A stretch of DNA of 64,000 nt. Origin: Pyrenophora tritici-repentis (taxonomy: Eukaryota > Ascomycota > Dothideomycetes > Pleosporales > Pleosporaceae). Location: NCBI RefSeq assembly GCF_003171515.1, contig NC_089396.1, positions 1,302,001 through 1,366,000 on the forward strand, read 5' to 3'. Of the stretch, positions 41,431 through 55,105 are shown piece by piece; positions within the stretch are counted from its first letter, which is position 1; each line of letters begins with the position of its first letter. Both the position numbers and the translations under genes were made by a program. The notes below the pieces were generated by a model. That model did not search any database, was not told where the DNA came from, and was given only the letters and a program-made list of their open reading frames with translations.

Positions 41431-44385
41431 TTAAAGTGTCGCGAGATCTTGGCGGAGACTACAACAACGCGGATGATCAGACCCAAAGCGCTCTTCGTAG
41501 CCCTCCAGCGCCCGCTCGTACATCTCTTCCGCCTTGTCTAGCTTGCCCTGATTAGCGTAGAGGGCGCCTAGGTTGTTGACCGTGTCAAGAGTCGACGTGT
41601 GATCGCGCCTAAGTGCCTTCTCCTTTCCTTGCAGCGCCCGCTCTTACATCTCTTCTGCCTTGTCTAGCTTGCCCTGATTCCTATAGAGATCGCCTAGGCC
41701 ATGAACTGCATCCATTATAGTTATGTCATCCTCCCGTCCCGTGAGCACGGTATTCACAGAGCTGTGACATTGGTTTGCGTGCCGAAGCAGCCGCTGCTGC
41801 GTCACCCAGTACTGCAGTGCGTCCGTACTAGGTACGTGTAGCCCCACACACCTCAGTGCAAGCCTGGCCATCCCATCATCCCATCCACCGTTTACCACAT
41901 GCTTCGTCCACGCGTGCCCACAGCTGTGCATGCCGTAGCCTCGTGACTCCTTGCCACCTTCTCCAAGCGTCGTATCTGCTTCGACTAGCGCATGGTCACA
42001 GAGCACTCTTACAGCCTTGTTAAACACAAGTCGATCTCGCGTCAGTTCGCAGAACCACTTTGGCGCATTGTCTCGGCCTTCTTGCAGAAGCTGCAGCCAC
42101 ACGTCTTGATTGTCAAAGTAGGCCCACAGCTGCAGAAGCTTTGTCGCGAGCGAGCTCTGCTTCTTGACATGGTCGAAAGAGATTCCCCACGTTGTGTACA
42201 GCGTCCTGTCTTCGTATGACAGCAGCTGCGGGGTGTCTTGCTTCAGTTGAGCCCACGACTCTTTGTACGATTGGAGATACTCCGCGAAGCTATCTGGTAC
42301 TAGGTGGAGGTAGGCGCCGGCCGTAGCAAAAGCCAGCGGCAACCCGTCCAGCTCTTCAGCTAGCCTCCGAGCGTCGACGTCTTGCTACTGTGTCAGCATC
42401 ACTCACGGCGAGGTAGGAAGGTGTCACCTACCAAGACTTAGCCTTTCTCGTCTGGACGTCTGCGACAGTATCTCCAGGCTGTGCTCAATGCCCCGCAGCT
42501 TCTTCACCGCGACGGGACGACCCAGATGCAGCTGAGACGACCGCGTCGTGATCAACACTGCTCCCTGGTCCGCTTTAGGAAGGAACGGCCGGATATCGAA
42601 CGTGCCCGGCCCGTCATGACCTGGCAGCTTCGGCGTGTCGTAGTTGTTATAGATGACCAGCCATCGGTCGTTCCCAGCGCTGCTCAGTCATCTTCTCACT
42701 GCCTCCGCCGCTTCGTCAAGATCGCTGCCTTGAGCGACAGCCTTGAGATGCACCAGCGACGGATGCTCGCGGTAGACGCGTCTCGCTGCGGCCGCATAAC
42801 CCTGCTTCAGCGTGTCAACGTCCTTGCTGTTGACCCAGAACACGGCCGAGTAGTCGTCTTTATGTTGTTGCGCGTATGCTAATGCTAGCTGTGTCTTGAC
42901 CATCCCACCTAGACCGTGTACGACTGCCGTCTTGCGAGACCCGTCATGCTCAAGCTCTCTGTGGATGGCATCCAGCTCCTCGCTCCGACCGACGAAATGG
43001 TCCACGCGCGACACCTCGGGCACGATAGACTGGACAGCGAACGACGCAACAGGCTCATTGGAATGGACTAAGAACAACTTATTACTACTACTACTACTTC
43101 TTCGCTAATATACTTGCTACTCTAAGACTACGTACCCACGTTTACTTTGGCCTCTGTATCACACCGCCCACCGATGCTAGTACCTGCTCTTGCTGCCATC
43201 ACCCGCAGGTGGCCTGACACCGTCCTGTACCCAGGGTCCGTCTTCGACTCGAACTTGACCATGTGGATGTGGTCCGCGTGTATCGCGATCGGCTCGCCGT
43301 CTGCTGCGCCTGGCACCACAGCCGATGCTCGGGGGACAACCTGATAGGCGTTAGCAAATAACTACTACGCTTCGTCCATCTTGAAGTAACTCACGATAAT
43401 CGACTTGCCTAACACCGTCGGCGTCGCGTACGTCTCGTACGCATACTTCGTTACAAAGTCCCCGCTAATCGGCTCGTACTGTCCCCAGCTGCTGCTGCAG
43501 CCACTCCGAGTCCCGCTCTAGGTGCTGCAGCAGCCGGTCGTCCGCCGCCATAAACACCGACGCCACGTTGACCATAAGCTTGCCTAGCGCGACGCCGCTG
43601 CCGCCTTGGTGGGGTGTTCCTATAAACAGGATGCCGTATGTCAACAGCTTGATGGCGCGGTGCTCTTTGAGGGCGCCTCGGCGGGCCGCGTCCGAGTGGT
43701 TGAGCACCTGTGCGTGTCAGTCGAGTGTTAATGTGCCTTTGTCAATCAAACGCGCTACAGAAGCTGTGGAAAGAGCACTCACGCTTTTGACAACAATGCC
43801 GCCCAAGCTATGCGCCACGAAGATGATCGGCCGCTTGCTCGTCTGCTCCGGCGTTAGTTCTTGCTATTGCACATAGTGTCTCGCTCATCGCGCACCTCCG
43901 TAATCTGCCTCTCCAGGCACAGGTCCGACACCAGCGTTCGTGCATGGTCGAACAAGTACTGGCAGCTCACTTGCGACCCACTGTGTGTGTTCGCATCATA
44001 GCCTCAGCAGAGTATGCGCGCGTTGGGAAGATCTTGTGGAAGGAGGTCGCGCAGCCAGTTGACGCTGTCGACGCTGTCGACGCCGCTGCCCGCCGTCCAC
44101 GTCTTCTCGCAGTGCCCGTGGACCGCGACGATGCTAGACTCATGTTAGCTGCTGAATGCGGCAACTAAGCAGCGAAGAGGAATACTCGATAACTGGGTTG
44201 ATGCCTTCACACACCACTTGTAAGCCCTGCGCAGCCGTGGCAGCCGGCTCTGTTGACCCTGAGGATGTTGAAGACAGCTCTGCAGATACCTGCCTGGGGT
44301 GTTAGACCGTGTGGAATGAAACGCGGTATAGGAGACATACCTTCGCCTTGCTCTTCTTCGAGCGGAAGTCAACGAGCCGTCGCAT
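41431..44385 (-). pseudogene. Decayed hydrolase/NB-ARC/TPR NLR gene (NLR-1)
   Basis: Reads from ATG at 44385 (MRRLVDFRSKKSKAK) through a DUF676-like alpha/beta hydrolase (IIFVAHSLGGIVVKS, then IGTPHQGG), an NB-ARC domain (DHFVGRSEELDAI, VVHGLGGMVKTQLALAY) and C-terminal kinesin-light-chain-type TPRs (NQGKLDKAEEMYERALEGYEE), ending at 41431. Lesions: TGA for the Trp after EAVRR (about 42685), TAA within AEEM-Y-ERAL (41643-41641), and a P-loop reading GGMVKT instead of GGxGKT. Intact relatives are fungal immune-type receptors. It is head to head with NLR-2, and their first ~600 bases are inverted homologues. Confidence 0.85.
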
Positions 44386-44759
44386 CGCGTTATCTTAGGC
44401 TAGGCCAGCAGATGCGTGGTGTAGGACGTAGAACATCCAGAAGTATCGCGCACGAAGGCTGTCGCAAAGCTGTCGCAAAGCTGTCGCGAGGCTGAGCTGC
44501 ACAGCGTCTGCGGCATGCTGGCGGTTCAGGCGATGAATGGCGCCTGAATGCTGTTGTCGTTAGCTGTCCGTCGCTCAGCCCGCTCAGCCCGCCGAACCCG
44601 CTGAACGGCGCTTACTGTAGTGGGCTGCTGTCACAGGCTACAACTCGCTTTTGGTGTCGACCACGATCGACGCCCTGGTCCTCAGACGGTCCCACAGTGC
44701 ACATCTGTCGCTCAGCCCGAATCCTACCCCAGTCCTGCGTAGGCTTTGTCGTTACTGAG

Positions 44760-45979
44760 ATGGCCCCGAAACCTTGCTGCCTCGCAGCATGATCTGATCC
44801 GGGATATGATTTCTGCCCAGACGCTTACTACTGCTCAGATGGCCGCCGTGGCTGGCTGCAGCGAGCGCTCAATCAAGGCAATAAGGTCCAATATCCGATA
44901 CTTCAATTCCACCAGGGCTCCTGCGAACGGAGGTGGGAGGCGTCAGTCCATCACACCGCCTATGTTAGGCGCTCTGTGCGACCATCTGCTCGAGAAGCCA
45001 GGGCTGTACCAGGAGGAGATGGCTGTCTTCCTGTGGGACGAGTTCGAGGTCCAAGTGTCGACACACAGCATCAGCAGAGCATTGAAGGACATAGGTTGGT
45101 CGAAAAAGGCTGCTCGGCAAATCGCGAAGGAACAGAACGCAGACCTGCGAGACTTTTACCTCTACAATCTGACACAGTTCCAGTCCTACCACCTTGTCTT
45201 TATCGACGAGTCTGGATGCGACAAGTGTATCTGTTGCAGTACAATGCAGTCAATCAAAGTGCAACCGCGCGAGGCAGTCATCAGAGTATATTCTGTTCTG
45301 TTGTTGTTGTGCTGTCATGGCCACCTTATATGTAGCCATAATCAGGGTCTATTTACATGACGTATCTCTGATGCTGGTGAGGGGAGAAGGTGCTCATGGA
45401 GGGGAGGGAGGAGCGCCAGGACAACGCACGTGACATGCGCAATACCCTTGCCTCACAAACCGCAACAGTATCGGCTTCAGGCGGACAGGCTGGTCGCCCC
45501 ACGGCGTAGCACCCGTCCAGGTTGCCAAGTTATACCGCGACCGGCGATATCAGATCCTGCCGGCGTACACTCAGGACGGGATCTTGCTCTCACGTGTGTA
45601 TCAAGGCTCGACAGATAGCGCCGTGTTTGAGGACTACATAGAGCAACTGCTCCCCCATTGTGGTAGATGGCCAGAACCAAAGTCTGTGCTCGTGATGGAC
45701 AATGCATCGTTCCACCGCACAGAGCGACTCGAGCAGATGTGCTGCGACGCTGGCGTCAAACTGATGTACCTGCCACCCTACTCGCCTGATCTGAATCCGA
45801 TCGAAGAGTTCTTTGCTGAGCTGAAGGCATTTATTAAGAGGAACTGGCGTGCTTTCGAAGACGCGCCGCAGCAAGGCTTTGATTCCTTTCTAGAATGGTG
45901 CATCGACGTTGTAGATGGGAAGCAGGACAGCGCTAGAGGCTACTTCAGACACGCTGGAATCACATTCGAGGAGTTCTAG
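44760..45979 (+). pseudogene. IS630/Tc1-type DDE transposase, broken
   Basis: The frame reads from an N-terminal helix-turn-helix (LTTAQMAAVAGCSERSIKAI) through FIDESGCDK, VLVMDNASFHR and LPPYSPDLNPIEEFF, the three catalytic D, D and E motifs of the DDE_3 family. Two lesions are clear. The ATG at 44760 is out of frame by one base (an extra A near 44770), and a 236-bp solo LTR with a 5-bp duplication is inserted after DKCI (45232-45467); without it the frame runs on through GFRRTGWSP. The next gene (46003-47511) is convergent and 23 bases away, as in the intact two-gene element at 51710-55103. Confidence 0.88.
45232..45467 (+). mobile_element. Solo LTR, family A, inside a transposase
   Basis: 236 bp, TGTTGCAGT ... 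ACCGCAACA, flanked by the perfect 5-bp duplication GTATC (45227-45231 and 45468-45472). It interrupts the DDE transposase between its first and second catalytic Asp. Confidence 0.85.
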
Positions 45980-46002
45980 GCTTGCACGTATAGGTATTTA
46001 GT

Positions 46003-47511
46003 CTAAGTAGAGTAAAAGTCACGTAAAGCTGCTACCTGCTGCTGGACCCAATACTCGATGTCGCGTATGAGACGCCGAGCGACACCAATCTTTATGCCCC
46101 GCGAGATGAAGAAGTCCGGGTCCTGGCCGTCGTGAAGTTGCTGCAGGTCAAGTCCGTGCTCTAGAGCCATGTCACACATGTTCCGAATGTCGTTCTTCTG
46201 ATCTTCTCTTCTGACTCGCGACTGCTGCCAATCACTATATTCCTCTACCGCAGCATCTAGAAAACCGGACACATCAAGACGAGGCTTGGCCTGCACTTCT
46301 GTTGAACCTGATGTTGGGTGAGACGGCCTAGGAAGTACGTTCGTTATATGGATTAGAGCATGATTCGCCGGGACGCTGTGACTGGCTCTTTGATATCTTT
46401 CTAGCTGCTGTTGCTCTTCTGCATAGATTTGCTGACGAATGTCTTCCGGCACGTCATCATGTGATAGCAACTGGCCCCCCTGCGCCACATGCCTTATCAA
46501 GGCTTTCAGCTGATGCGTCCTTAGCTTGTAGTGCTTCTTTCCGTGCGGGTCCCGCTAGCAGTGAGGCCCAAGACTGCATGGCGAGCCCGGACATCGCATC
46601 AGGTTGTATACATCCTGTCAAACAGACGGCAGGCTGGACGTTCCTTCCTCAGCATCGACCTGCGAGTCTCTTTCAGCAAGCATCTGCTGCGTGGCGGAGG
46701 GATATCCTCGCTTTCCACCTCGCTTTGATGCTACCGGCATTGGCTGTCCTATGTCTACATAGTTGAACGACACATCCACCCTCAGCTTCTTACCTGCACG
46801 AAACAACTCGCTCCACTGAGAGAGCTGTTTCTCCACCAAGAACCAGTCGACATCCACTTCATCAAAGCGCTTTGTCAAGTCACGTTTTGAGCGCTCAGTC
46901 ACTGACACGACAACGTTAGTGTCTTCACAGGCAACACGCTTACTCGGCGGCAGTTTCTTCTGCAGCAGCTTCTCTAGCTTCTCACGCAGAAACAGCGACC
47001 AGTAGAACCTGGGTGCTAGCACGAGATCTGGCTCCGTATCTTTGGAGAGGAACTTGTTGTTCAGCGTGACCTTCCACTCGATCGAGTAGTGGAGGCATGT
47101 CGACGGCTCCTCATTGTACGCCTCGTTTTCGTTCCACTCATCCAGATTTAGCAGCTCGAGCTTGCCTGAAAGCGGCCTTACATGTCCCACGGTACAAGTG
47201 CCCCTGCCTAGATCGCCGGCGATCGCTTCTTGGTACACTGCAGCCGGGAACGGTGAGTGGAGCACAAACGGCTCGCTCCGAGAGGACGACGGGTGTCCCG
47301 CTACCTGGGTATCAGGCATCTGGGACGCCGTAGACGCGCCTGAAAACTGGGATCGGCCGAGCGGGAACGAAACTGGGTCCATCGACGGACACGGGCTTGC
47401 GGTGGCGGCTTGTGTAGGCGGGTCCGGCGATCGGCCGTAGGGCTGCTGCGACCCTGAGGGGGGGGCTACATGAGACCCACGCCTGGATCTGGCTGTGCGT
47501 CGAACAGGCAT
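46003..47511 (-). pseudogene. Transposon companion protein, broken copy
   Basis: Reads from ATG at 47511 (MPVRRTARSRRGS) to 46003, about 500 codons. The order is a Pro/Ser-rich N-terminus, a globular part (YSIEWKVTLNNK; KRVACEDTNVVVSVTERSKR; LRVDVSFNYVD), a Cys cluster C-x4-C-x5-C (MRCPGSPCSLGPHC), HDDVPEDIRQQIYAEE, and a C-terminal domain (MALEHGLDLQQL; GVARRLIRDIEYW). TGA at 46620-46618 and TAG at 46557-46555 interrupt it, the latter just after the Cys cluster where its homologue has Trp. I know no function. It is homologous to the ORF at 51920-53593 and, like it, convergent with a DDE_3 transposase. Confidence 0.75.
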
Positions 47512-47860
47512 CGTCGGAGGGCTGTCGCGCTGCACAAGGCCGACGGCTGGCATGCACTGTCGTGACGTGGCAGGAGTGCTCCAACAGGAAGGCAGTTGGC
47601 CCTTGACAGCTAAGCGCGGTGCAGGCGGAGCGTGCGGGCTGAACGAAGGACAGCAAGCAACGACAGCCGACAGCAACAGCCAACGACAGCCATCAACAGG
47701 CCGCCCCCAACGCTGCATACAGCCAGCCCCTATCGCCAGCATGCCACCGCCTGCTTCCTCTGCCTTGCGACGTACCCCACGATGCACCTCGCCCACGATG
47801 GTGTTTGACATAGCCTACATCCCCTCGCACCACCTGGTGTCTCACCAAGGTTGACACCAT

Positions 47861-50091
47861 GCGACGACTCTTCCAGTTCGGGTCGAAGAAACACGGCGCA
47901 AGGGTACCTCAAACAAGACCGATCCCGCCTCTGCGCGCTCTAACGCACAGGCAGGCTCCTGTGAAACAGTCCACATCCTCGACAGTAGCAGCGCCTGCGG
48001 TCTCGCTGCCAGCACAAGCAACCGGTGCAGTTCTGCAGGGCTTACAAGTAGTGTGTGAAGGCACCGACCCAGTCATTGAGTGCGCTGTCCCGCCATGACG
48101 TTCCTGACTCGACAGCTGACACGAGTCTAGCATCGTCGCGGTCCACAGCCTGAACGGGCACTGCGAGAAGACGTGGACGGCGGGCAGCGGCGTCGACAGC
48201 GTCGACAGCGTCAACTGGCTGCGCGACCTCCTTCTACAAGATCTTCCCAACGCGCGCATACTCTGCTGAGGCTATGATGCGAACACACACAGTGGGTCGC
48301 GAGTGAGCTGCCAGTACCTGTTTGACCATGCACGAACGCTGGTGTCAGACCTGTGCTTAGAAAGGCAGATTACGGAGGCGTGTAGTGGATAGACCAGACA
48401 CAAGACAAAAGCTAAGTCATGGCAGACAAGCAAGCGGCCAATCATCTTCTTAGCGCACAGCCTGGGCGGCTTCTGCAAAAAGGTCGAGATAACGCCCCAG
48501 AGTGGTTCTGCGAATTAACGCAAGATGGACTTGTGTTCAACAAAGCTGTAAGAGTACTCTGTGACCATGCGCTGGTCGAAAGGGATGTCACGGCCCGAGA
48601 CAGCAGCATAGAGTCACAAGGATATAGTATGCACAGCTGCGTGCACTTATGGACAAAGCATGTGGTAAACGAGGAATGGGACGATGGATTAGCTAGCCTT
48701 GCCATGAATTGTACGGGATTGCACGTGCCTGATCAAAGCCGGCCTCAGTACTGGGTGACAAATCGGCGACTCGTTGCGCACGCTGCCCGATGTCTGGATT
48801 TTATCAGATGCAGGCGGATTGGAGAGCATGACAACGTGTTAGTGCCTGAGGCCATCATGAGTCTAGGTGTTCATTACAAAAGACAAGGGAGATTGAAAGA
48901 GGCAGAATAGATGTACAAACTAGGACTGGAAAGATGCGAGAAGGCAAATGGCCGAGACACGCTCACTATCGATATATTCAACAACCTAGGCAACCTTTTT
49001 CTGTCATCAGGCCACAGTCCGCAACAATCAATTAAGTGGGTCCTAGAAGGTTCAGATTGGATTGATTGATTACCGCTTTAAGCCTAGTAGTTACCTATAG
49101 GAGTTTAAGCCCTACCTAGATAGGTAAGTGGGTCTAGGAGAGTGACCGGATTGAATTGATTGTTGCGGAGTCTACATCAGGCAGACTTGAGGAAGCAATG
49201 GTGAGTTGTCAACAGGCACTAGAGAAATCTAAGGAAACATTTCCCCACAATCATCCATTAGCATTCCGCACAATCAACCATATAGGCGTCTGCTTCCTCG
49301 ATCAGGGCAGACTAGACGAAGCGAAAAGCATGCTCGAGCAAGCCTTAGAAGGACGAGAGAGGACACGAAGGCCCGATAGCCTGTCAACGCTTGAGACCGT
49401 ACACAACTTAGCCCAGCTGCACATGAGGCAAGGTAATATCTTTAAAGCAGAGAGCATGTTTCAATGGGCGTTGAATGGAAGAGAGGCAAAACTTCCAGTC
49501 AACCACATACTGACACTTGAAACCGTTAGCGACTTTGGCACTTTCTTCGGTCGTCGAGGAAAGCTGCCAGAGTCCGAAAATATGTTCCGTCGAGCATTGA
49601 AAGGGTTTGAGCAGGCGTTTGGACATGATTACCCATCGACACTTTATGCTGCCAATAAACTGGGTTGTCTCCTCTTGAGACGATATAAGTGTCACCAGGT
49701 AAAGAACATGTTCTTTCGAATGCGAGAAGAGTATGAGCAGGCCTCAGGGCCTCGTCGTACGTGGACATTTGAGATGATAAACAACCGAGATAGCCTCCGC
49801 GCAGATCAGGGCAGGTTAGATGAGGCCGAGCAAATATTCAAGTGGGCGCTGGAGGGATCCGAGAAGGTACTTGGGCCCGATCACACGTCAACGCTTGACA
49901 CGGTCAACAACCTGGGCATCCTCTACGCTGATCAGGGCAAGCTAGATGAGACGGAAGAGATGTACCAACGGGCGCTGCAAGGATATGAGACCAGCTTTGG
50001 GTCTAACCATCCGCGTTGTCGCAGTCTTCGTCGCGCTCTTGCTACGCTTCAAGATCGTGTAGTGACTCAATCACTAAGCACTAGAACTTAA
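47861..50091 (+). pseudogene. Decayed hydrolase/TPR NLR gene lacking NB-ARC (NLR-2)
   Basis: Starts MRRLFQFGSKKHGARVPQ (47861) and continues with GLQVVCEGTDPVIE and VAVHSLNGHCEKTW, then IIFLAHSLGG at about 48470. There it jumps directly to LLQKGRDNAPEWFCEL, a segment that in NLR-1 lies ~1.7 kb further on, so the NB-ARC domain is deleted. Several TPRs follow (SGRLEEAMVSCQQALE, DQGRLDEAKSMLEQALEG, DQGRLDEAEQIFKWALEG, DQGKLDETEEMYQRALQG) to 50091. Further lesions are TAG at 48908-48910 (GRLKEAE*MYKL) and a 162-bp MITE at 49013; excising the MITE with one 8-bp copy restores LFLSSGRLEEA. Confidence 0.85.
49013..49174. mobile_element. 162-bp hAT MITE, copy 2
   Basis: By eye the same sequence as at 7012-7173, with the perfect 8-bp duplication CATCAGGC (49005-49012 and 49175-49182). 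It is inserted in the TPR part of NLR-2. Confidence 0.9.
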
Positions 50092-51709
50092 CTTTCTCTT
50101 CTGTAATGTAGTACTAAACGTATGCAAGCAGTTGTACTCTACACCAAACAGCAATATTAGATGCATTGTGAGAAGCGTTTAACCCTTGATGTTTGATAAT
50201 TAGTCCTCGTGTACAAGGGTTGTGCTACCTCGTGGGTAAGCTCTACGCTCTGCTGTGTAAGGTGCTAAAGCGCTGTATTTGCGGTAAACTACACGTGTGC
50301 TGACGGGCTAGCACTAGGCTCGATCCGTTAGATAGGGCAACATAATCCCTGTCTGCGGTGTGGCGCAAACTTTGTTGCAACTGCGTTCGAGGGGAAGCCG
50401 CATTCGCTAAGCACTGTACGCGTTGCGGCACATTGCGCGCACGGATACGGTACCTAGGTAAGTATTTCGCACTAACCGCTTATTGAAGACGTATCAACAA
50501 CATTAAAAAGCAACTCTAAAAACAACACAAAGCCTACCTCTGCAACACTTGTTATCAGATTAACCTCTATCAGATCAATCTGATTGATATGATAAAATAG
50601 AGAGCTTCAATCTGATCTGATTTGACTGCCAAGCAGTCAGTCAATCATTCAATCAATCGGGCCAGATCGGATTTATTGTTAGCAACTCTGGACGGACGGT
50701 ACCAAAGTTTGAGGTGAAGCAAGCTAAGTGTTCCACGCAGACACACAGGTAGTGCATTCGTGGCCTAGTTATTTATTTGTGACGAAAGCGTTTCTGAGCG
50801 AAGTGTGCGCTTAGAATAGAGGAGCGCTCTTCGCGTTACTTCACGAGCTTTTCTGCATTGCAGAACAGATAGAGGTTATAACTGTTTCTTAAATCTCACT
50901 AAATTCCGTGAAAATATGCCCTACAAGTTTTTATCAGGGAAATCAACATGATGTGCGCTACTAAAGGACGAGACTTTTGGCCGTAATTAGGACTGCACCT
51001 GAACCACCCTAAGCTAGCCCGTTTCATTTACGCCCATCTTATCGGTCCTATTCTAGTCGATTAAACAACGCCGTGCTAGAAGTAGTTGCTATCTTGGAAC
51101 ACTAAAGGTTCGGGCTAGAACACCGCCGATAACGTGGGCGTAAATGAGGTGGGCTAGTAGGGTGTTCCTGTCACGAGAGGCAACGAGCAGTAATCTCAGA
51201 ACTTATGAAGAAGTTTGATTTGTGTGCTACGTACAGTACTCAAGTGTAAATACAAGACGTTGCGTGAAGAAAAGAAGTGGAGAGTTCCACCAGAGAAAGA
51301 TATAAAGCGGAAGGAAGCTTGTGTGACGTCATACAGATGTCGGGGCAGTAGCATACTGTCGAGGATAGTACATTGCGCTGTTGCGATAGGAGCGTACGGG
51401 TTAAGAGCAGGAGCGCATAGGTCAGAGGCAGGAGTGTCAAGGGGACCACGGTGGTTACCGTGACAGGTCCATGGAGAAGTCTCCGGCCGGAAGTCTCTCA
51501 GCCCACGCCGCACCAAAACTAGTTGCCATCTTGGCGTACTAAGATAAGGAATCACCGGTTTAAGGTAATTATTGAGACGTCTCTATCGTTCCTTCTATTC
51601 CCCTTTTTAACACTGTGCCAAGCTATCACTGTAGAAATCGTGGATCTAGAGCATAGCAATACTTCTTAATAGTACCGTAGGCTATAGTAAACTCTTGCAT
51701 ACTGTTGTA
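50092..51709. other. Gene-free region with repeat debris
   Basis: No gene recognised. Around 50560-50690 there are AATCAATC-rich strings like the subterminal parts of the hAT element, perhaps a relic. A palindromic unit lies at 50997-51172. The string GGCACATTGCGCGCACGGATAC near 50430 recurs in altered form near 55210. Confidence 0.45.
50997..51172. repeat. Palindromic MITE-like unit
   Basis: Left arm (50997-51055) and right arm (51126-51172) are imperfect inverted copies of about 50 bases. They include CTAGCCC, TCATTTACGCCCA and TTATCGG, so the unit can fold into a long hairpin. No target duplication could be fixed, so the class is uncertain. Confidence 0.55.
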
Positions 51710-51919
51710 TTGTGGTTTTCGAAATACCTTGAGCCGCCTGGATCTGGTTAGCTTGGTGCCCAAGAACATCAACTCCCATAGTAATTTGTTAGTAAATTAA
51801 TGCAGCAGCCGTTTCCCACCTCCAGAAGCCCATGAAGCTAGTCCTGTACTCTAAATCGTTCGTGTATAGCGTTTTGTTTGTGTGGAGCTTGTTGCGAGCT
51901 CAATCTAGCTGCTGTTGGG

Positions 51920-53593
51920 ATGCCGCCCAAGCGCCAGCGTAAGCCGAAGCAGCCATTCGATCAAGGCGTTAACCCGTCCTCCCAGAAGCGTAGAGCGCCA
52001 GCAACTAGACAAAATCCTACCCATTTAACGCCTAAACGTGTCCGCCGTGAGGCGCTGCCGTCGCCTCCAGCGACTGCCCCGCCGCGCCGTCAAAGCCCGT
52101 TGTCCGAGCCTGAGCTGCAAGCCACCCAAACAGCTGCCTCCGCGCAAGCTGAAGATATCGTTGGCGAGGATGAGGATACTTTCGAGGATGGAGATGGCGA
52201 TCCGCTGCCTGAGGATGAGGATGAGATCGCTGCTAAGGGCGCTGCCGGTAGTGTTGAGGATGAGGGAGAGCCAGCGTACCGACGTCAAGAAGGCACTCCA
52301 TGGCTGCCTCGCTCATCGCAAGCGCTAGAGGATGAGGTTAATCCTGTACTGCGCGTTAGGTGGAGGGCTTGCCTTGGTGGTGATATGGAGAAACACTTTA
52401 TTCCTGAAGCTGCCGATAGCGAGCACGGCGTACGGCTGTACTCGCTGCATTTCGACGACCTATGGCAGTGGGTAGATGACGTTGTTGCAGAATTACGGCC
52501 AAAAAGAGCGAAGATCTCATCTGTTTGCACTGTTGTTTACCCAGCTAAGCAGGCCAAACGCGAGCGCGCGATAAAGCGATTGCGGCGAGGTGTTGATGCA
52601 ACGTGGAATAGCTTTCAGCGCCTTGTTGTAGAGGTTGATAACTATGTCAGCGAGCCAGTAAACGTCGATTTCGAGCTCATCTTGGCTGAAATTCCAGGGG
52701 AGCAGCAGCCGTTGCCAACGGTTGTCGACGGTCCTCGTCGACGCACCGCAACGGTGATTCAAGAGGAGGGGCTTGCTGGTGTAATAGCAGCTGAACAAGC
52801 AGGTAGCGGGCATGCTATTGCTATCCGGGATAGATGGCGCTGTACAGATACCCATTGCGAGAACTATCCTTATTGCTGCTGGATGGCGCCAACAGCGAGG
52901 CAGCCAGCGCGCTTCGAAGATCACCTCTTTGTCAACGGCAACATTATCTCCATGTGGGCAAGAGCAATTACAGCGAGAAGGGCAACGTACGATGAGCCAT
53001 CTGATGATGTACGGCTTGCAATTTTGAGAGCAAAGGACCTGCGGGTGCATGAGAAAACGCGCAAGTTGCGGGCGGCTGGAGATGGCGACGATGATATCAA
53101 AAGCTTAACAAAACTGCTCATCGTTGGACAGCTTGAGCGGATGAACAGGCAACCTCAACAGGAGTCTAACTTGCAGGCAGCTGCACCAACGATAACAAGA
53201 GCTGAGGTATCTAGTGCATCTCAGTGGGCGCCTATCCGATATGATCATGAGCAGGAGATTAACGAGCATACTAGTAATTTCTTTAACTACCTTAAGTTAA
53301 AATTTCCTACAGTTGGAGAGGACATTAACGAGCTTTATAAGACTCTTGTTATTGACGGAGCTATGGATATCAACCTCTTGATGCAGCCATCTGGTGATAT
53401 CTTGAAGTTGTGGACGCAGCATTTCAAGCAGCCTCCTGGCTGGTTTTTCACGCTACAAAACACTGCAAAAGAATGGCAAGCTGGGTACCAGGGTCTCACA
53501 GATCGTAACTGGAGACGAGTCGAACGTTGTAAGAAAAGAGAAGAGATTGCGCGCAAGAAATTGGTGGTTGAACCGTCTAGCAGTGTTGTGTAG
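51920..53593 (+). CDS. Transposon companion protein, unknown function
   Basis: 557 residues from the ATG at 51920. The N-terminus is basic and Pro-rich (MPPKRQRKPKQPF), suggesting nuclear import, followed by an acidic stretch (about residues 85-120). A globular part has VLRVRWRACLGG, AKQAKRERAIKRLRRG and VNVDFELILAE. A Cys cluster C-x4-C-x5-C-C-W (RWRCTDTHCENYPYCCW, about residues 305-322) may bind zinc. The C-terminal domain has DGAMDINLLMQPSGDILKLW and a basic end. No known domain is recognised. Collinear similarity with 46003-47511, including identical Cys spacing, shows a family that travels with DDE_3 transposases. Possible roles are end binding, transposition control or cargo. The frame is intact. 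Confidence 0.8.
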   Translation: MPPKRQRKPKQPFDQGVNPSSQKRRAPATRQNPTHLTPKRVRREALPSPPATAPPRRQSPLSEPELQATQTAASAQAEDIVGEDEDTFEDGDGDPLPEDEDEIAAKGAAGSVEDEGEPAYRRQEGTPWLPRSSQALEDEVNPVLRVRWRACLGGDMEKHFIPEAADSEHGVRLYSLHFDDLWQWVDDVVAELRPKRAKISSVCTVVYPAKQAKRERAIKRLRRGVDATWNSFQRLVVEVDNYVSEPVNVDFELILAEIPGEQQPLPTVVDGPRRRTATVIQEEGLAGVIAAEQAGSGHAIAIRDRWRCTDTHCENYPYCCWMAPTARQPARFEDHLFVNGNIISMWARAITARRATYDEPSDDVRLAILRAKDLRVHEKTRKLRAAGDGDDDIKSLTKLLIVGQLERMNRQPQQESNLQAAAPTITRAEVSSASQWAPIRYDHEQEINEHTSNFFNYLKLKFPTVGEDINELYKTLVIDGAMDINLLMQPSGDILKLWTQHFKQPPGWFFTLQNTAKEWQAGYQGLTDRNWRRVERCKKREEIARKKLVVEPSSSVV

Positions 53594-53923
53594 GATGATG
53601 GCGAGAATGCTTGAAGCTTAGTGGCCTGAGCGTTTTTGGTGACAGCGGCCCGTGCCCGCTATAAGTTAGTGTTGAGGTTTTTCAGGCGTTTCAAATGCGC
53701 TGCAACAATAGTCTATTTGGATAGCCCTATGTACAACACTACAACGTTATGCGATTATAACAGGTTAACTTCCTAAGATAGTTCTATATGTATAGAAATA
53801 GCTCTTATTTTTTTAGAATTATTAAATCGCTTTTGTGGGTTGCGCATTAAGGTGTAATCGTTCGCATTTGTATGGTATCATCTACCTATAGAAACGTACT
53901 GTGGCATCCATTTAAAAGCACAA

Positions 53924-54898
53924 TTAATAGGGATAGCCACACCTATGGAACCAGCTTCTGCAGTTAATATTACAGCACACCAGCTGCGCTGCATACTCAA
54001 GAAAGACCCCAAAGTCAATGAAGTTCTCCGCTTGCGCTGAATTCCTTTTCATCCACCCCTTGAGCTGCTTAAAGCTCTTCTCGATGGGGTTGAAATCTGG
54101 TGAGTATGGCGGCAGATACTCAAGGAGTACTCCAGCACTTTGGCAAAGCACCCGTACACGCTCTGATCGATGGATGGAGGCGTTATCAAGCACGATTACT
54201 GAGGCTGGCCCTGGGTGAGGATTGCAGAACGGCAGCACTTGAAACTCTAAGAAGTCTTCTAGGATCTCAGATGTAATCGCGCCTTGAAAGATCTTATAGC
54301 TTATGTAGCCATCTATCGTCATGGCTGGCAGCAGCGACCACCGTTCTGATCGCCTGAAGCTGTGTGATAGCTCCACCGGCTCCCCGATTGGAGACCAGCC
54401 ATACTTGCGGTCGCCCGTACGCTCATTGCAGGCGCTCTCGTCCAACGCAACGATCTGCTCCGCCTTATAGTGTTGCGCCATCCTGGCAAGATAGAGGCGG
54501 CGGAGTGGCTCACTCTGCTCCTTTGCCCGCTTTGTTGCAAGCTTGCGAGACCATCTCATCTTCTCTAGCTCTCGGTAAACGCTCGCAAGGCTTATCCTAA
54601 CGTCGTACTCGTCGTACAAGAAGTCCCTCATCTCATCCATGTATGCGCCCGGTGAGCCATTGAGGTATGCCTGAAGGCCTTCGCGCTGAGCTTGCCGGAG
54701 TATAGATGGCCGCCCAAGTCGAACGCAGCGCGGCGGATAAGGCACGCCCCAAAACTCTAAGCTCAACCTCAGCTTTGCTACTGTGTTACGGCTCGCACCT
54801 GTAGCTCTAGAGATGGCTCGATCACTTTCGCAGGCAGCAATTCGGTCGAGGATAGCCTGGAGAACAGCGGGCTGCAAGCGGTGGCCGGTGCCTGGCAT
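53924..54898 (-). CDS. IS630/Tc1-type (DDE_3) transposase
   Basis: 324 residues from the ATG at 54898 (MPGTGHRLQPA). The N-terminal paired-type helix-turn-helix is ACESDRAISRATGASRNTVAKL; a second helical region includes YMDEMRDFLYDEYDVRISLASV. Catalytic residues are Asp in VALDESACNER, Asp in VIVLDNASIHRS and Glu in PPYSPDFNPIEKSF, with a D-34/36-E-type spacing. All motifs are present, so it is probably functional. It is convergent with the companion gene and lies next to the right inverted repeat. Confidence 0.93.
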   Translation of the reverse strand: MPGTGHRLQPAVLQAILDRIAACESDRAISRATGASRNTVAKLRLSLEFWGVPYPPRCVRLGRPSILRQAQREGLQAYLNGSPGAYMDEMRDFLYDEYDVRISLASVYRELEKMRWSRKLATKRAKEQSEPLRRLYLARMAQHYKAEQIVALDESACNERTGDRKYGWSPIGEPVELSHSFRRSERWSLLPAMTIDGYISYKIFQGAITSEILEDFLEFQVLPFCNPHPGPASVIVLDNASIHRSERVRVLCQSAGVLLEYLPPYSPDFNPIEKSFKQLKGWMKRNSAQAENFIDFGVFLEYAAQLVCCNINCRSWFHRCGYPY

Positions 54899-55105
54899 CG
54901 CGATGAGATGGGCTCGAGAAAATTGCAACACCAAAAACGCGAGTCAGTAGAGGCGATCGCAGCAAACAATGAACTTCAAATACGTTGTGGGTGTTAGAAA
55001 GCGTGGCTGCATCGATTTACTAACAAATTACTATAGGAGTTGATGTTCTTGGCCACCAAGCCAACCAGATCCAGGTGGCTCAAGGTATTTCGAGAAACAC
55101 CCATA

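Follow-up and report, generated by a model that had tools for sequence, protein, structure and literature searches.

A Tc1/mariner element of Pyrenophora tritici-repentis with a second gene that is probably integral and old

The stretch of Pyrenophora tritici-repentis DNA analyzed here (NC_089396.1, positions 1,302,001 to 1,366,000; 64,000 nucleotides, hereafter the window) harbors at window positions 51710..55103 a Tc1/mariner element that encodes, convergently to its transposase, a second protein, termed here the companion. On balance, the evidence favors reading this sequence as an autonomous DD34E element of the Tc1/mariner group that was active recently and has an integral, old second gene, the product of which may be a self-associating nuclear accessory protein. 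That the second gene is integral and old, and not a recently captured host gene, is held with considerable confidence.

The whole element, to which no strand is assigned, spans 3394 bp (51710..55103), as determined from delimited copies in the genome, and is flanked by TA target-site duplications at 51708..51709 and 55104..55105, identified from the sequence and from the flanks of retrieved copies. The aligned parts of its terminal inverted repeats (left, 51712..51806, forward strand; right, 55006..55100, reverse strand) cover 95 columns in a local alignment and 116 nt at 85% in an ungapped comparison. The limits given in a first-pass annotation of this DNA, with TA flanks and long inverted repeats, proved exact by both sequence and copies. 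The companion gene (51920..53593, forward strand; ATG at 51920, stop codon ending at 53593) encodes 557 aa, and the transposase gene (53924..54898, reverse strand; ATG at 54898, stop codon ending at 53924) encodes 324 aa from the first ATG; both open reading frames (ORFs) are intact and they are convergent. Pfam assigns DDE_3 (E = 3.4e-29) and HTH_33 (E = 4.5e-6) to the transposase, whose DD34E triad is D153, D238 and E273. For the companion, no Pfam family was found at E 10 with any of 3/3 protein versions, HMMER filters being applied, and both ORFs and Pfam search agree with the earlier description of an intact DDE_3 transposase facing an intact 557-residue ORF without a known domain. The combination of DDE_3 and DD34E, TA target-site duplication and terminal inverted repeats is that of the Tc1/mariner (IS630-Tc1-mariner) group. 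The element departs from the single-gene organization usual in this group, two genes being present at 51 of 52 loci, but this does not exclude membership, since exceptions are known in ciliates.

Searches of the P. tritici-repentis genome (40.9 Mb, 41 contigs) returned 63 matches to the companion, 41 of them full length and free of stop codons, and 68 matches to the transposase, 44 of them full length without stops. Match pieces were merged into loci; 7 of the 68 transposase rows were not included because they are diverged relatives (≤45% identity), and two of these 7 represent a second transposase in the window (44758..45979). After merging, 51 of the 52 transposase loci have a convergent companion at most 4 kb away and all 51 companion loci are paired with a transposase; the sole unpaired transposase, at C10:3919825, presents one end motif instead of two. 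The 100 end motifs among the matches listed correspond to 49 facing pairs and 2 single ends. Forty element copies were scored and 30 of these were retrieved for delimitation. All 30 could be delimited, with lengths of 3389, 3393 or 3394 bp, and 29 are flanked by TA at each end; the remaining copy has AT at one side. The retrieved copies comprise 11 distinct sequences, with 15 variable columns in 3394, and both 10-nt flanks are identical in just one pair (L029 and L031), which is probably a single locus assembled twice. The same flanks mark contig C31 (22 kb) as a possible assembly duplicate of part of C7. Given that 30/30 copies were delimited, 29/30 with TA, and that only one pair shares flanks, chance is excluded as an explanation for the element, and the approximately 50 near-identical copies are taken to mean that an autonomous element multiplied in a recent burst. 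In 35 of the 41 full-length companion rows the open frame is 7 codons longer than in the window copy, yielding a protein of 564 aa. In five copies (C1:5284019-5292784, C10:1921054-1927162, C10:1936153-1942251, C10:3241352-3246830 and C13:31156-37258) the paired ends are separated by 5.5 to 8.7 kb, which makes insertions probable there.

A protein search with the 557-aa companion listed 70 matches, most of them named as P. tritici-repentis and the remainder assigned to Setomelanomma, Ophiobolus, Alternaria, Clathrospora and metagenomes, with identities of 34-71%. The presence of relatives in other filamentous fungi points to the second gene being part of the transposon and not a recent acquisition from the host. 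In an alignment of 11 diverse members of this family (family 1) the mean column identity is 52%, certain N-terminal residues are invariant, and so are C308, C313, C320, W321 and H335, which make up a candidate zinc site (52841..52924, forward strand, residues 308-335). Within a 17-member set, C308 and C313 are kept in 17/17 sequences, C320 and W321 in 16/17 with one gap, and residue 335 is His in 15/17, Tyr once and a gap once. A beta-grasp domain resembling PB1 (52334..52699, forward strand, residues 139-260) and a SAM-like helical domain (53255..53479, forward strand, residues 446-520) are predicted on either side of this site. The N-terminus has no structure in the model and changes from basic (residues 1-60; 15 K+R, 2 D+E) to acidic (residues 61-140; 4 K+R, 25 D+E).

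The window element is very probably, by its description, the Tc1/Mariner repeat of the same species reported in the available portion of Manning et al. 2013 (PMC3538342), which also has a second ORF between its terminal repeats. According to that portion of the article, the repeat has 46 members, 31 of them near-identical with both coding regions, transcripts were reported, one non-pathogenic isolate lacks the repeat, and both coding sequences occur in tandem on an Alternaria alternata bacterial artificial chromosome (PMC3538342). The second ORF was interpreted there as a transduplication, whereby the terminal repeats would have come to enclose a captured host gene with PF08946 domains, since amplified with the element as a passenger, an interpretation favored by the absence from one isolate and by transposon capture of other genes in the same paper. 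Several results speak instead for a conserved transposon gene. The published annotation of the companion as PF08946 (osmosensory transporter coiled coil) is not supported by the search of current Pfam, in which 3/3 protein versions gave no match at E≤10 with HMMER filters applied. No companion copy outside an element was found in the genome and, with 51/51 companion loci paired, no free-standing source gene was found. Relatives of the companion are widespread and diverged, and a second, distantly related companion (family 2) in the same window holds the same convergent place beside its own DDE_3 transposase. Transduplication is hence considered unlikely. What is added to the published account is that the second gene looks old, conserved and transposon-borne, unlike a recent passenger, and is probably common to two distant families.

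The reading of the second gene as integral and old has to be weighed against several observations. Four other diverged DDE_3 loci (C7 near 2635 kb, C9 near 62 kb, C4 near 1513 kb and C7 near 37 kb) show no companion of either family in the genome searches, and another DDE_3-like family, with longer open frames (about 552 aa), is represented by dozens of copies that score weakly (e.g. C1:7561910-7562098). The second pair in the window has no established terminal repeats with TA, and it is from this single pair that we infer that family 2 companions adjoin transposases elsewhere. No companion relatives turned up in four scans, two each on viral and on prokaryote contigs, none of which covered fungal contigs. 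The first-pass annotation had suggested that a conserved second gene marks a distinct transposon family in which the companion would assist, target or regulate transposition. Regular pairing (51/52), conservation beyond this genome and the probable homology of the companions sustain a two-gene family; its novelty is not supported, because such an element was published in 2013 as a transduplication and ciliate Tc1/mariner elements with extra ORFs are known.

Regarding the function of an integral companion, the likeliest role is judged to be that of a nuclear scaffold on element ends or chromatin, because of the unstructured basic-acidic N-terminus and the conserved Cys/His site. PB1 and SAM domains are self-association modules. 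The companion may serve the element as a nuclear accessory protein, self-associating by means of the PB1-like and SAM-like parts and working at the element ends or on chromatin, and the outcome would be either that assembly of the transposase complex is helped or that the element is kept expressed despite silencing. This mechanism, which draws on sequence conservation and predicted structure, is put forward tentatively. Sequence cannot separate assistance from repression of transposition, and the pairing and conservation observed are equal to those expected of an assisting gene if the companion were integral but repressed or regulated transposition instead; the approximately 50 near-identical copies imply, however, that transposition was not prevented recently, making this alternative rather improbable.

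The closest known systems differ from the element in host, gene content or superfamily. The ciliate TBE/Tec elements, in the available parts of their descriptions, are also Tc1/mariner elements combining a DD34E transposase with further ORFs, but they have three ORFs and ciliate hosts, and they are likened to the present element by description, not by sequence (PMC7325037; PMC4724952). One product of TBE is a zinc finger protein, and purifying selection is reported in the same sources for all three TBE genes. VANC of the Arabidopsis VANDAL elements, as described in the part of the source available (PMC5735166), is a possible analogue in being a second transposon gene with a product that counters silencing, although the likeness is one of role only and involves another transposon superfamily and a plant host. 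Fungal Tc1-Mariner elements with a single ORF, such as those described for Cochliobolus heterostrophus in the available part of PMC4112212, share the TA duplication, short terminal repeats and DDE transposase, but their potentially active copies carry a single ORF.

The second pair in the window consists of a diverged transposase (44758..45979, forward strand), with HTH_33 and DDE_3 in its two pieces, and the family 2 companion (46003..47511, reverse strand), which is convergent to it and interrupted by two in-frame stops, both at positions where its relatives have Trp. At about 45.2-45.5 kb the transposase is split by some 0.24 kb of sequence with GT..AG ends, which may be an intron rather than damage; when this sequence is treated as an intron, the two transposases of the window share 37% identity over 314 aligned positions. 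Of the broken convergent pair described earlier at 44760-47511, the convergent layout and the two stops in the companion stand, and "broken" applies to the companion only, because the gap in the transposase, the start codon of which is not evident, is possibly an intron. A single copy of the family 2 companion was found in the P. tritici-repentis genome. A protein search with X placed at the stops of the query (E≤1) retrieved 471 relatives, and the 120 among the matches listed come from hosts that include Alternaria, Didymella, Boeremia, Bipolaris, Parastagonospora, Lasiodiplodia, Pseudogymnoascus, Lachnellula, Geoglossum and Colletotrichum, which we take to span several classes of Pezizomycotina. 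A precomputed Pfam domain was present in none of these 120 relatives (of 471). Of 99 aligned members of family 2, the three Cys are conserved in 97, 98 and 97, respectively, the Trp in 98 and the His in 94.

BLASTP between the two companions gave no signal, and a profile comparison of families 1 and 2 over full sequences was not significant, with 25 of 100 column shuffles reaching the score. When the N-termini, disordered in the models, were omitted, a choice made after this first negative result, the ordered regions scored 33.7 (E = 0.0016, 305 columns), a value reached by none of 60 block shuffles (maximum 21.0); the reversed profile scored 18.1. With the secondary structure of the models included, the ordered regions matched with a probability of 78.6% and E = 0.0021. 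Rotated profiles, in which local blocks are kept, reached the score in 29/60 cases without secondary structure and in 0/60 with it, and 0/60 reached an alignment of 305 columns. A structural comparison, which the first-pass annotation had also put forward, was made between two models built from separate alignments, one per family. Both present the same order of predicted elements, with two strands, a helix, two strands, a helix and a strand, followed by helices up to the Cys cluster, further helices and a C-terminal helical part, and the PB1-type and SAM-type matches fall at corresponding places. In both families the third conserved Cys directly precedes the Trp and a conserved His follows. 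Since the third Cys is the one before Trp, the motif reads C-x4-C-x6-C-W in family 1 and C-x4-C-x5-C-W in family 2, and the identical C-x4-C-x5-C spacing reported earlier for both companions does not hold. On profiles and models together, homology of the two companions is likely, and the layout they appear to share comprises a disordered N-terminus, a PB1-like beta-grasp, the Cys/His site, helices and a SAM-like end. That they are unrelated, were acquired separately and resemble each other in motif and layout by coincidence would fit the negative BLASTP and full-length profile comparisons and a second pair framed by imperfect inverted repeats of about 1 kb instead of established terminal repeats with TA, but is improbable against the ordered-region comparison and its shuffles, the parallel predicted elements, the common Cys, Trp and His positions and the same convergent layout of both pairs.

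If the second gene is indeed an integral and old part of the element, what was described in P. tritici-repentis as a "transduplicated" ORF is a gene of the transposon, a likely identity follows for several hundred fungal proteins that lack a domain (471 at E≤1), and helper or regulator genes are retained in fungal Tc1/mariner elements, usually thought to need a transposase only, providing a small system for testing such genes. A broader proposal, which we consider doubtful, is that of a two-gene Tc1/mariner lineage across several classes of filamentous ascomycetes in which a self-assembling companion, with its PB1-like part, Cys/His site and SAM-like part, would coat or bridge ends or chromatin, for transposition or for escape from silencing. 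Were this so, the second gene would have been retained over a very long time, Tc1/mariner would include a multi-gene lineage in hosts other than ciliates, and a role would be assigned to hundreds of fungal proteins that lack annotation.

The inverted repeats around the second pair lie at 43706-44737 and 47505-48576, with 43895-44119 and 48154-48378 being 96% complementary. By eye, and without Pfam support, these arms partly resemble the start of an NLR-type gene with an alpha/beta-hydrolase, and a further match to the left arm, at 70%, lies at C7:2676149-2676839. Directly to the right of the 47505-48576 repeat, an ORF at 49156-50091 encodes tetratricopeptide repeats (TPR_12, E = 1.1e-50) and may form the end of that NLR-type gene.
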